Shown: positions 60,641-64,000, counted from the stretch's first letter. The stretch is 64,000 nt of DNA from Stigmatella aurantiaca DW4/3-1 (GCF_000165485.1 NC_014623.1:3925501-3989500); one strand, 5' to 3'. Program-made: numbers and translations. The notes: generated by a model from the sequence alone, not told the origin.

Positions 60641-61423
60641 TCAGAGCAGCCCTCGCCATTCGGGCTCGAACGTGCTCCCCGCGAGGAACACCTCCGCATG
60701 GCCGGATTGGCCATGGTCCGCCGCTTCCTGCTGGTGGAAAGACTCCAGGATGGGGGCCACGGCCTCTTCTCCTCCAAACTGGAAAGGAAGCTGGCTCCGG
60801 TAGCAGACACACCCTGCGATCTTGTGGGGCAACTCGGCCGTGACGTTCACGGCCAGAGGCCGCAAGCCCTCGGGCAGGGACAGATCTGGCTTCGCGTAGG
60901 GCTGCCGCACGGCGTAGGGGGTGTCGCGGTACCAGAGGATCTGGGACACCTGAACGTTCAGGGCGGGCAGCACCCGGACGAGCTGCACGTGGTCCACATG
61001 GCTGCCCAGGGCCTGAGGGGCGAGCACCAGGTCTGGGCGCACTTCATCCACCAACAAGGAGAGCTTCTCCTCCAGCGTGGGGATGATGTCGTCGTCCCTG
61101 TGCGGCGGGGCGAAGAGGGCGCCGGGACTGTGGTAGCCCCGGTGAGGGGCTTCCGGCAGGTCCATCCAGATGAGCTGGTCCACGCCCATCCGTGCCGCGA
61201 AGGACCGGTCTTCCGCGCGGCGCAGGGCCATGTAATCCACATCCGGGCCCAGCCCCTTGTCCGTCTGACAGGCCAGGGCGAAACCCGTGGGGTGGGTCAC
61301 CGAGCGGGTGAACACGGTGGCCAGGACGATCCTCCACCGCCGCGCCTTCAAGCGGGCCAGCATCCCGCCGCACGAGAAGGCGACGTCATCCAGGTGAGGG
61401 GACAGGAAGAGGGCGGTGTTCAT
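60641..61423 (-). CDS. PIG-L family deacetylase
   Basis: The 260-residue protein has the zinc-site motifs of LmbE/PIG-L enzymes: SPHLDD at 8-13 (His, Asp) and SHVDH at 141-145 (third ligand). Members remove acetyl from N-acetylglucosamine on small molecules, as MshB in mycothiol and BshB in bacillithiol synthesis, or from glycan lipids and antibiotics. The ATG overlaps the GT4 stop (ATGA). Pairing of a GT4 with this deacetylase is the main clue that the operon makes a glucosamine-bearing metabolite. Confidence 0.88.
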   Translation of the reverse strand: MNTALFLSPHLDDVAFSCGGMLARLKARRWRIVLATVFTRSVTHPTGFALACQTDKGLGPDVDYMALRRAEDRSFAARMGVDQLIWMDLPEAPHRGYHSPGALFAPPHRDDDIIPTLEEKLSLLVDEVRPDLVLAPQALGSHVDHVQLVRVLPALNVQVSQILWYRDTPYAVRQPYAKPDLSLPEGLRPLAVNVTAELPHKIAGCVCYRSQLPFQFGGEEAVAPILESFHQQEAADHGQSGHAEVFLAGSTFEPEWRGLL

Positions 61424-62706
61424 AGCAGGTGGGGCGAACTCCGGAAGCGGCAGGAGAGGTCCGCCGTGGCCTCGGTGGTGGCGGGGTCATAGACGTTCGT
61501 CCAGCGGGTGTCCGGCCGGGTTCCCAGGAGGTCCGCGTAGACTTGTTGGATCTGTCGGCCCACGGCCTGCCACGAGTACAGCGCTCGTGCTTCTTCCAGG
61601 GCGGTGCGTGCCAGGCGGCGCCGCAGCGCCGCATCGTCCAGCACGCGGGCGATGGCTTCGGCCAGGGCGTTGGCGTCCCGAGGTGGCACGAGCAGGCCGT
61701 TGCGCCCATCCTCCAGGCAGTCCAGCACCCCCACCGCCCGGGTGGAGACGATGGGCAGCCCGGTTGCCATGGCCTCGAGGATGGTGTTGGAGAAGCCTTC
61801 CGCGTAGGTCGGCGAGACGAAGAGGTCGCCTCGCCGGTACAGCTCAGGCGCATCCTCGTAGGCGGAGTACCCGGTGAGTTCCACGCTGTCCTGAAGGCCC
61901 TCGTCCGCCACCCGGGCCTTCACGGCGTTCACATCCGGGCCGATGCCGGAGACGAGAAGCTTCAGCCGGCGCCTGTCCCGCAGCACCAACTGCTTCACCG
62001 CGTCCAGCAGCTCCATCACGCCTTTCCGCGCGTCCACGCGGCCGTGGTAGAGCAGGACGGGCGGGTCCTTCAGCGCCCCGGGCGCCGAGTCCTTCCGAGG
62101 GTGGAAGCGGCGGGTGTCCGTGGCGCCAGGCACGAAGGTGAAGCGCTCCAGCGGGGTGCCATGGTGGCCCTGGACTTCCTCGGCGAAGGTCCGGCTGCCG
62201 ATCAGCAGCGCCCCGGAGTGGCCCAGCACCGCCAGCATGGCCTGCTTGTGGGTGCCGCAGCAGGTGCCCACCCAGTGTCCGTCTCCTCCCTGGATCGACA
62301 CGACATTGGGCAGGCCCAGCCGCCGGCTCGCCTCCAGGGCCGCCAGGCCGCACGGGTAGCCGTACTGCGCGTGGATGAGATCAAACGGGCGCTCGCGGTG
62401 TTCCCGCTCCACGGTGGCGACCATGTCCTCGACATCCTGCTCGAAGCTGGCCGGCAGACCGGCGTTGATCCGCTGCTCTCCCTGGGACTCACGTCCCAGC
62501 ACCCGGGCGCCTGGGATGCCGGGAGGCGGTCCTCCGCCGTAGACCGAGGCGCCCGCGGCGTCGTTCCGGTACTGGCTGACCATCGTCACGTCGTGGCCGC
62601 ACGCCACCAGCTCTTTGACCAGGTTGAGGGCGTAGACGCTCATGCCCGAGATGGCCGGGAAGAAGCGCCGGGAGATGAAGCAGATGCGCAGGGCGTTCTG
62701 GCTCAT
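61420..62706 (-). CDS. GT4 glycosyltransferase
   Basis: The 428-residue enzyme has two Rossmann halves: N-terminal RICFISRRFFPAISGMSVYA, and C-terminal YHGRVDARKGVMELLDAV with AEGFSNTILEAMATG, the E-x7-E nucleotide-sugar motif. MshA and BshA, which start the thiol pathways, are also GT4 enzymes. A CCGTH pair of cysteines (about 165) is unusual for the family. The start overlaps the stop of the TIM-barrel gene (ATGA). Acceptor and donor are unknown. Confidence 0.85.
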   Translation of the reverse strand: MSQNALRICFISRRFFPAISGMSVYALNLVKELVACGHDVTMVSQYRNDAAGASVYGGGPPPGIPGARVLGRESQGEQRINAGLPASFEQDVEDMVATVEREHRERPFDLIHAQYGYPCGLAALEASRRLGLPNVVSIQGGDGHWVGTCCGTHKQAMLAVLGHSGALLIGSRTFAEEVQGHHGTPLERFTFVPGATDTRRFHPRKDSAPGALKDPPVLLYHGRVDARKGVMELLDAVKQLVLRDRRRLKLLVSGIGPDVNAVKARVADEGLQDSVELTGYSAYEDAPELYRRGDLFVSPTYAEGFSNTILEAMATGLPIVSTRAVGVLDCLEDGRNGLLVPPRDANALAEAIARVLDDAALRRRLARTALEEARALYSWQAVGRQIQQVYADLLGTRPDTRWTNVYDPATTEATADLSCRFRSSPHLL

Positions 62707-63572
62707 GCCGCTACCCCCGCATCCGAGGGAAGCCGCGCCCGGAGCCACTCGAGCGCTTCGGGAATCATGGTGTGCGCGCGGTGCGCGTCCCGGGAGAGTT
62801 CGATGCAGACGAGCTTGTCGTAGCGCGCCTGGATGAGTTCCCGGAGCACCGGGATGACGTCCAGGTCTCCCTCGCCGAAGGGCAGGTGTTCGTGCACCCC
62901 TCGCTTCATGTCCTCCAGGGCCACCGTGCCGAGCACGGGGGCGAACTCACGCACGGCGTCCACGGGCTCGCGCTCCTGGGTCACCAGGAGGTGTCCCACG
63001 TCCAGGGCCAGCTTGAAGGGCGCCGCCCCCAGGAGCTTCACCTCTTCCTGGAGCTGACGCCAGGCGTCCACCGTCTCCACCAGCATGCCGGGTTCGGGCT
63101 CCATCGCGAGCACCACGCCCCGGGAGGCGGCATGGTCCGACAGGCGGGCCACGCCATCCACCAGCCAGCGCCAGGTGTCCTTCAGCACCACCTCGCCTCG
63201 CCGGGGGACCCCCGCCCAGAAGGAGACCGCCTCGCCCCGGCAGGTGGCACAGACGTCCACCGCCCGGCGCAGGAAGTCGAGCCTGCGCGCCCGCCCCTCT
63301 GCCTCGGGGCTGATCAGCGTGGGCTCATGTTTGGCCCGGGGGTTGAGCAGGAACCGGGCGCCCGTTTCCACCACCAGGCCGAGCCCAAGCTGCTCCAGCA
63401 ACCCCGCCAGCATTTCCGCGCGGCAGAGCAGGTTGGGAGCCAATGGATCGAAGTGGTGGTGATCCAGCGTGAGGGCCACGCCGTCGTAGCCGCTGTCGGC
63501 GATGAGCCGCAAGGCGTCTCCGAGACGATGGTTGGCGGCTCCGTTCGTGTTGTACGCAAAGCGCAATGTCAT
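62703..63572 (-). CDS. Sugar phosphate isomerase/epimerase-type TIM barrel
   Basis: The 289-residue protein fits the xylose-isomerase-like TIM barrel family: FAYNTNGAANHRLGDALRLI at the start, metal-type residues in LAMEPEPGM, LALDVGHLL and ALEDMKRGVHEHLPFGEGD. Members isomerise or epimerise sugars or act as metal-dependent lyases or hydrolases, so the reaction is open. The start overlaps the YcaO-like stop (ATGA), which ties it firmly to this operon. Confidence 0.82.
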   Translation of the reverse strand: MTLRFAYNTNGAANHRLGDALRLIADSGYDGVALTLDHHHFDPLAPNLLCRAEMLAGLLEQLGLGLVVETGARFLLNPRAKHEPTLISPEAEGRARRLDFLRRAVDVCATCRGEAVSFWAGVPRRGEVVLKDTWRWLVDGVARLSDHAASRGVVLAMEPEPGMLVETVDAWRQLQEEVKLLGAAPFKLALDVGHLLVTQEREPVDAVREFAPVLGTVALEDMKRGVHEHLPFGEGDLDVIPVLRELIQARYDKLVCIELSRDAHRAHTMIPEALEWLRARLPSDAGVAA

Positions 63573-64000
63573 GACCGGCCTCCTCCAAAACGGCGGGTAC
63601 GAAGCACTGTTTGCACGCTGTGACGCCCCGGTTCCCGGTAGAGCGGGTAGAGCGAACCCAGCCGTTGCTCGGCCAGCCGCACGTTGAACCAGGCGGGGCC
63701 CCCCAGGCGCTCCTCGGCCGATGCCGTCAGCCGCACGCGCTGGGCCCCCTCGGGGGGAGGCCCCAGGCCGGCCAGGGGATCCTGGCGCGCCAGCAGACGG
63801 GACAGGTTCCGTTCTCCCAGCCGGGAGTAGGTCATCGTCTCCACCTCGAGCCCTGGGACGAGGGTCTTCACCACGTGGATGGAGTGGTCCGGAGGGGACA
63901 GGTCGATGATCAGGACGTCGAAGCCGGTCAGGAGGAGCCCATCCACCACCTGGGCACAGCGCTCCGAGGGGGCCTCGGCGGTGACGGCCTCGGGCAGGTT
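63569..64000 (-). CDS. YcaO-like protein, C-terminal part (gene continues beyond window)
   Basis: Only the last 143 codons are present; the frame is open to the right edge. GFDVLIIDLSPPDHSIHVVK followed by TLVPGLEVET matches the C-terminal YcaO pattern (a D-L/T-x-x-D strand, then VV-x-x-x-VPGL). YcaO enzymes use ATP to activate peptide amides, giving azolines, thioamides or amidines. A tail follows with AWFNVRLAEQRLGSLYPLY, which is not typical; the Pro-rich end of azoline-forming members is absent. It heads the operon with the TIM-barrel, GT4 and PIG-L genes. Its identity rests on one motif block. Confidence 0.6.
   Translation of the reverse strand, partial: NLPEAVTAEAPSERCAQVVDGLLLTGFDVLIIDLSPPDHSIHVVKTLVPGLEVETMTYSRLGERNLSRLLARQDPLAGLGPPPEGAQRVRLTASAEERLGGPAWFNVRLAEQRLGSLYPLYREPGRHSVQTVLRTRRFGGGRS

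Follow-up and report, generated by a model that had tools for sequence, protein, structure and literature searches.

Within the 64,000-nucleotide stretch of Stigmatella aurantiaca DW4/3-1 that was analysed (NC_014623.1:3925501-3989500, hereafter the window), four genes on the minus strand at 60641-64000 encode a YcaO protein, a xylose-isomerase-like TIM-barrel protein (TIM), a GT4 glycosyltransferase and a PIG-L/LmbE deacetylase. The first-pass annotation had read these four genes and three ATGA overlaps from the window, and both were confirmed by domain matches and by the junction sequences (TCATGACA for YcaO/TIM, GCATGAGC for TIM/GT4 and CTATGAAC for GT4/PIG-L), the domain assignments being secure. 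Indeed, when the sequence was extended past the window edge, the full-length upstream gene proved to be a YcaO gene as had been supposed, the complete 495-amino-acid (aa) protein matching PF02624 with an E-value of 1e-54 (186 bits vs a cut-off of 25.7). However, the unit had been taken for a four-gene operon, while the window edge in fact cuts a longer one, in which YcaO is preceded by a metallo-beta-lactamase-fold (MBL) protein with an N-terminal zinc ribbon (a junction that is again ATGA), a Gfo/Idh/MocA oxidoreductase and an inositol-phosphate synthase (MIPS). The seven genes from MIPS to PIG-L are contiguous, their spacing running from -10 to +3 bases, and the complete form comprises nine genes.

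In a comparison between phyla, the complete set runs MIPS-HD-MTase-Gfo/Idh-MBL-YcaO-TIM-GT4-PIG-L (HD, HD-type protein; MTase, methyltransferase), and this cluster was found in at least five phyla, namely Myxococcota, Planctomycetota, Alphaproteobacteria, Actinomycetota and Bacteroidota, with order and strand alike and all proteins co-homologous. Carriers include Skermanella, Parvularcula, Methylobacterium (with M. aquaticum and M. bullatum) and, on plasmids, Roseomonas among Alphaproteobacteria; Modestobacter and other Geodermatophilaceae among Actinomycetota; and Saprospiraceae, Lewinella, Leeuwenhoekiella and a variant in Hymenobacter among Bacteroidota. Since the gene order is conserved across phyla, a chance grouping of these genes is excluded. 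In a profile survey of the HD protein over a sample of about 1,370 genomes from four phyla, matches were obtained in 1/294 Planctomycetota, 3/385 Alphaproteobacteria, 2/296 Bacteroidota and 7/396 Actinomycetota genomes, and the cluster was present in all 13 of them; four of these genomes were those used as centres, and the nine newly fetched loci display the same order, one of them ending at a contig edge after TIM. The first-pass annotation had held that homologous operons with freely separating genes would speak against its proposal, but the same order was found in five phyla and every HD match sits in a cluster. In addition, the pairwise protein distances are correlated between the nine genes (r 0.76-0.96, with the window genome's YcaO row taken from the L004 paralogue, which slightly lowers the YcaO correlations), and the nine genes therefore travel together. 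The gene content, order and joint inheritance of the cluster are held with very high confidence.

Other genera carry one cluster; in the window's genus the HD and MTase genes lie away from the operon, directly before a second YcaO gene (72% identity) located 1.7 Mb off in a genome that forms a single contig of 10.26 Mb, and both loci recur in four genomes of this genus. The HD gene stands between MIPS and Gfo/Idh in two further genera of myxobacteria. Among the variants, Quadrisphaera has no MTase and places MBL after TIM, Hymenobacter has no MTase match, and an Isosphaeraceae contig lacks MIPS and TIM but otherwise carries the set, a dehydroquinate (DHQ)-synthase-like gene filling the MIPS slot. 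A replacement of MIPS by this cyclase was considered and is weakened by a distant MIPS (38% identity) on another contig of the same metagenome-assembled genome. Note that, in the cluster on the Hymenobacter volaticus plasmid, Gfo/Idh is annotated in two pieces and may be frameshifted, and that the cluster YcaO is duplicated or triplicated in tandem (about 60-70% identity) in some Corallococcus-type myxobacterial loci. In the myxobacterial clusters, MIPS is preceded by a MATE efflux gene (69-91% identity), which is missing from this place in the other phyla inspected. The window's genome also contains three further YcaO genes, two of which are paired with TfuA and form separate candidate thioamide-type loci (Table 1).

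Table 1. Features of the operon and of related loci; 60641-64000 follow window numbering, loci outside the window are numbered by locus label, and L003 is the window operon extended.
Feature	Position	Strand	Remarks
PIG-L/LmbE deacetylase, 260 aa	60641..61423	minus	PF02585 62.8 bits; SPHLDD and HVDH motifs; terminal gene of operon
GT4 glycosyltransferase, 428 aa	61420..62706	minus	PF13692/PF00534, about 131 bits
Xylose-isomerase-like TIM-barrel protein (AP_endonuc_2), 289 aa	62703..63572	minus	PF01261 122.7 bits; IolE/UlaE/IolO-like superfamily
YcaO, C-terminal part only	63569..64000	minus	runs past window edge; whole gene L003:5070-6557
MBL-fold protein	L003 6554-7387		upstream of YcaO
Gfo/Idh/MocA oxidoreductase	L003 7378-8403		upstream of MBL
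MIPS	L003 8407-9630		upstream of Gfo/Idh; heads operon
MATE transporter	L003 9846-11291		precedes MIPS
Further YcaO genes, window's genome	G000:C1:1668357-1669879, 3578262-3579781, 2044461-2045420
Tandem cluster YcaO genes, myxobacteria	L054 263-4842; L052 5196-8190; L023 8047-11060
Gfo/Idh in two pieces, H. volaticus plasmid	L080 10732-11780
DHQ-synthase-like cyclase, Isosphaeraceae	L060 490-1809		NCBIfam NF004852, 483 bits
YcaO relatives beside sugar ABC-transporter genes	L063 5181-11494; L070 732-8794; L076 6843-12532		no HD gene
Spore-photoproduct-lyase-family genes	L079 18511-20632; L110 14866-15912; L060 10176-10695		fragments in L060
Uracil-DNA-glycosylase-family or Fpg/Nei genes flanking cluster	L061 4040-4696; L108 6270-6935; L107 15731-16414; L081 17259-17882; L082 16960-17637; L112 967-1773; L113 1487-2284		upstream or downstream by genus

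Altogether, the window genes probably represent the 3′ end of a conserved pathway of nine genes making a non-ribosomal cyclitol/amino-sugar metabolite, with a likely, moderately supported role in protection in light-exposed, dry habitats. A non-ribosomal product of this type is suggested with good confidence, and a small molecule as the substrate of YcaO with fairly good confidence. In the open-access papers searched, neither a description of the cluster nor a paper linking YcaO with inositol and PIG-L was found, and among the 40 best-ranked of 258 papers none linked it with MIPS, mycothiol or PIG-L, in line with the first-pass view that these four genes are not known from any described pathway; the nine-gene pathway, previously undescribed, probably builds a small inositol-glucosamine compound. 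Every chemical step that follows is inferred from the enzyme family, and the role is likewise an inference. MIPS, which scores 284 bits against the Bacteroides MIPS 7nwr and 201 bits against the Archaeoglobus MIPS and retains the long motifs conserved around the active site, would convert glucose 6-phosphate into an inositol phosphate, from which the HD protein would remove the phosphate. The HD protein has no NCBIfam name, its predicted model (pLDDT, the predicted local distance difference test, of 90) is closest to HDDC2/YfbR-type HD phosphohydrolases (Z 12-13; 1xx7 and 4dmb, over 132-152 residues), and the Skermanella protein matches PF13023 with 28.5 bits; a MIOX/PhnZ-like oxygenase was not supported, since the fold search ranks the HDDC2/YfbR-type hydrolases first and PhnZ weakly, although this ranking leaves oxygenase chemistry conceivable. 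Gfo/Idh would then produce a ketone by oxidising a hydroxyl of the ring or of a sugar, and the TIM-barrel protein, whose NCBIfam matches (UlaE, IolE and IolO) are weak and all far under cut-off, may isomerise or dehydrate the keto-cyclitol. GT4 (nearest to the sucrose-phosphate-synthase-like 6kih among solved structures, then MshA and BshA) would add an N-acetylhexosamine, and PIG-L, whose nearest solved relatives are the teicoplanin/A40926-type (glycopeptide) N-acyl-glucosamine deacetylases, would deacetylate it to a free amine. Note that the acceptor domains of GT4 and MshA did not align when the inositol-phosphate-binding residues were compared.

The YcaO protein keeps the E-x-x-E and E-x-x-Q-R-D segments, the latter invariant in 22 sequences, and may spend ATP on activating a carbonyl oxygen in the small molecule for attack by the amine (or by sulfur). 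Amide activation and amidine formation by YcaO are established for peptides, and the same chemistry on a sugar-like substrate is our proposal. The methyltransferase would decorate the product, and the MBL protein, with a predicted metallo-beta-lactamase fold (pLDDT 93, best match 2p97) and four invariant zinc-ribbon cysteines, would be an accessory hydrolase, while the adjacent MATE transporter may export the product in myxobacteria.

A photoprotective role of the cluster is suggested, with moderate confidence, because several clusters have DNA-repair genes as neighbours and many of the named hosts are organisms of exposed habitats, living on leaves or surfaces, in air or in deserts (Methylobacterium, Roseomonas, Skermanella, Geodermatophilaceae, Hymenobacter and Lewinella). 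In three phyla, genes of the spore-photoproduct-lyase family are found no more than 3 kb from the cluster: two of them adjoin it on a Roseomonas plasmid, and others occur in an actinobacterial genome and on the Isosphaeraceae contig, in genomes with only one to three copies. In addition, uracil-DNA-glycosylase-family genes adjoin the cluster, on differing sides, in Skermanella, in the genome G803 and in three Methylobacterium loci, as do Fpg/Nei genes in two actinobacterial genomes. According to PMC9664959 and PMC12573535, compounds absorbing ultraviolet A (UVA), including methylobamine, were reported in Methylobacterium, methylobamine being a UVA absorber according to Yoshida 2017 and Kamo 2018 as cited in PMC9664959; the open-access papers found just cite this compound and give neither its structure nor its genes. 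As a more specific form of this role, the product could be an inositol-derived, mycosporine-like UV-absorbing vinylogous amide or amidine, which we regard as rather unlikely. Here, Gfo/Idh and TIM would turn inositol into an enolised cyclohexanedione or enone, the methyltransferase would cap it, YcaO would phosphorylate the vinylogous carbonyl oxygen and the glucosamine amine would replace this oxygen. The mycosporine-like chromophore itself is speculative and drawn by analogy, and if true, this protein would be the first YcaO to act on a sugar-like substrate, and UVA absorbers, methylobamine possibly among them, would have a new biosynthetic route.

Several points weigh against the proposed pathway and its role. 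The signature doublet of the HD protein reads HH (H194-H195) in 17/17 sequences, and its activity may therefore not be that of a phosphatase; the HxHxDH motif of MBL is incomplete, with the D and the last H absent; the Methylobacterium cluster has no MBL and several myxobacteria no MTase. The order of the proposed steps is guesswork, and no YcaO is known to act on a cyclitol or an amino sugar. The repair-gene link was noticed post hoc and is absent in myxobacteria and most Bacteroidota loci, and for the lyase proximity (0.12-0.15 coincidences expected, P about 3e-4 to 5e-4), the family was picked after the first case had been seen.

Other readings of the cluster account for part of these data. 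Among solved structures, MshA and BshA are close to GT4 in score, the operon begins with MIPS much as mycothiol synthesis is supplied by Ino1, a MATE exporter adjoins the myxobacterial copies, and the distribution is patchy and mobile, plasmids included, all of which would suit a mycothiol- or kasugamycin-like pseudodisaccharide. In such a pathway, GT4 would couple N-acetylglucosamine to inositol (phosphate), PIG-L would deacetylate it and YcaO would install an amidine, thioamide or similar group, leading to a redox cofactor or an aminoglycoside-like antibiotic with no sunscreen role. We consider it possible but doubtful, as the mycothiol and bacillithiol equivalog scores all fall far under cut-off, the cluster has no Cys ligase, aminotransferase or sulfur-transfer gene, and Gfo/Idh and the TIM barrel are left without a clear job. 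A catabolic pathway taking apart an inositol/amino-sugar compound appears very unlikely: inositol catabolism typically involves Gfo/Idh and IolE-like TIM proteins, and YcaO relatives (42-44% identity) from Sphingomonas and Rubrobacteraceae adjoin sugar ABC transporters and polysaccharide-deacetylase genes, but MIPS and a GT4 using nucleoside-diphosphate sugars are biosynthetic, and the cluster contains no importer and has a MATE exporter as neighbour in myxobacteria. Note that three loci from Sphingomonadaceae and Rubrobacteraceae with such YcaO relatives (two of them, L063 and L076, also with a polysaccharide-deacetylase gene) are possibly uptake or breakdown loci for a related compound.

The first-pass annotation had offered either a glucosamine-bearing small molecule, which fits, an inositol-phosphate synthase standing at the head of the operon, or a glycosylated modified peptide, which found no support: none of the precursor, E1-like or TfuA genes to be looked for on extension was found. 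No precursor peptide gene is present in the clusters, where gaps range from -11 to +35 bases (L061), -10 to +29 (L079) and -10 to +3 (L003), with a single gap of 104 bases in L068, and there is no room for one because the genes overlap or abut. Neither an E1-like C protein nor TfuA stands beside YcaO in the clusters inspected, and the three TfuA genes of the window's genome are all elsewhere, two of them adjoining other YcaO genes. A ribosomally synthesised and post-translationally modified peptide (RiPP) with an adjacent precursor was thus rejected on gene spacing and on the lack of partner genes. There is still the case of a peptide encoded elsewhere in the genome, modified by YcaO and then glycosylated, as precursor genes lie at a distance in some RiPP systems (PMC4603692) and SagD-type maturases are the best partial match of the YcaO domain; yet the SagD-type score is 115.6 bits for a cut-off of 219.25, no partner gene was found in any cluster inspected, and MIPS, PIG-L, TIM and Gfo/Idh would be left unexplained, making this reading very unlikely. 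The McrA-glycine thioamidation family (TIGR03266) scores 100.7 bits for a cut-off of 365. In a gene-neighbourhood survey of YcaO proteins, a "non-TOMM YcaO" group was described (TOMM, thiazole/oxazole-modified microcin), with substrates listed as unknown (PMC4603692), and the cluster YcaO falls in this group.

A cyclitol/amino-sugar pathway remains our preferred interpretation. The known activity of YcaO enzymes is the modification of peptide backbones, and an order-conserved nine-gene cluster with cyclitol and amino-sugar enzymes provides a concrete, testable setting for the question of "non-TOMM" YcaO substrates. If true, YcaO chemistry would extend to small molecules, and one metabolite would be common to leaf, desert, airborne, marine and predatory soil bacteria; the cluster may explain part of the sunlight tolerance of its hosts.

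Compared with known systems, the cluster shares with TOMM and YcaO-TfuA RiPP pathways a full YcaO domain, well above the PF02624 cut-off, with E-x-x-E and E-x-x-x-R type motifs kept, but its YcaO reads QRD instead of ERD and its neighbours are sugar and cyclitol enzymes. With bacillithiol (BshA, BshB, BshC) it has GT4 and PIG-L in common, whereas it contains a cyclitol synthase and, in every member inspected, no BshC ligase. Mycothiol (Ino1, MshA, MshB, MshC) is alike in the glucosamine-inositol core logic of inositol-phosphate synthase, GT4 and PIG-L, and unlike in that the cluster adds HD, MTase, Gfo/Idh, MBL, YcaO and TIM; no MshC Cys ligase is among the nine genes, the rest of the genome not having been searched for it. 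Judged by curated equivalog cut-offs, membership in both pathways was rejected, as the first-pass annotation had supposed: the scores were 37.1 bits vs 638 for mycothiol INO1 (TIGR03450), 89.3 vs 462.5 for MshA (TIGR03449), 83.6 vs 273.7 for BshA and 27.6 vs 182.5 for BshB1, with no match to MshB. Finally, the mycosporine-like amino acid pathway uses a cyclitol-derived core, a methyltransferase, a dehydroquinate synthase (DHQS)-type cyclase and an ATP-grasp ligase. The nine-gene cluster has no DHQS-type cyclase and no ATP-grasp or nonribosomal-peptide-synthetase-like ligase (a DHQS-like gene occurs on one planctomycete contig), having MIPS, Gfo/Idh and TIM instead of the former and YcaO instead of the ligase, whereas cyclitol core and methyltransferase are alike, and the use of ATP to activate a ring oxygen towards attack by an amine would be an analogous step. 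As for methylobamine, the cluster is present in two members of its source genus, Methylobacterium aquaticum and M. bullatum.

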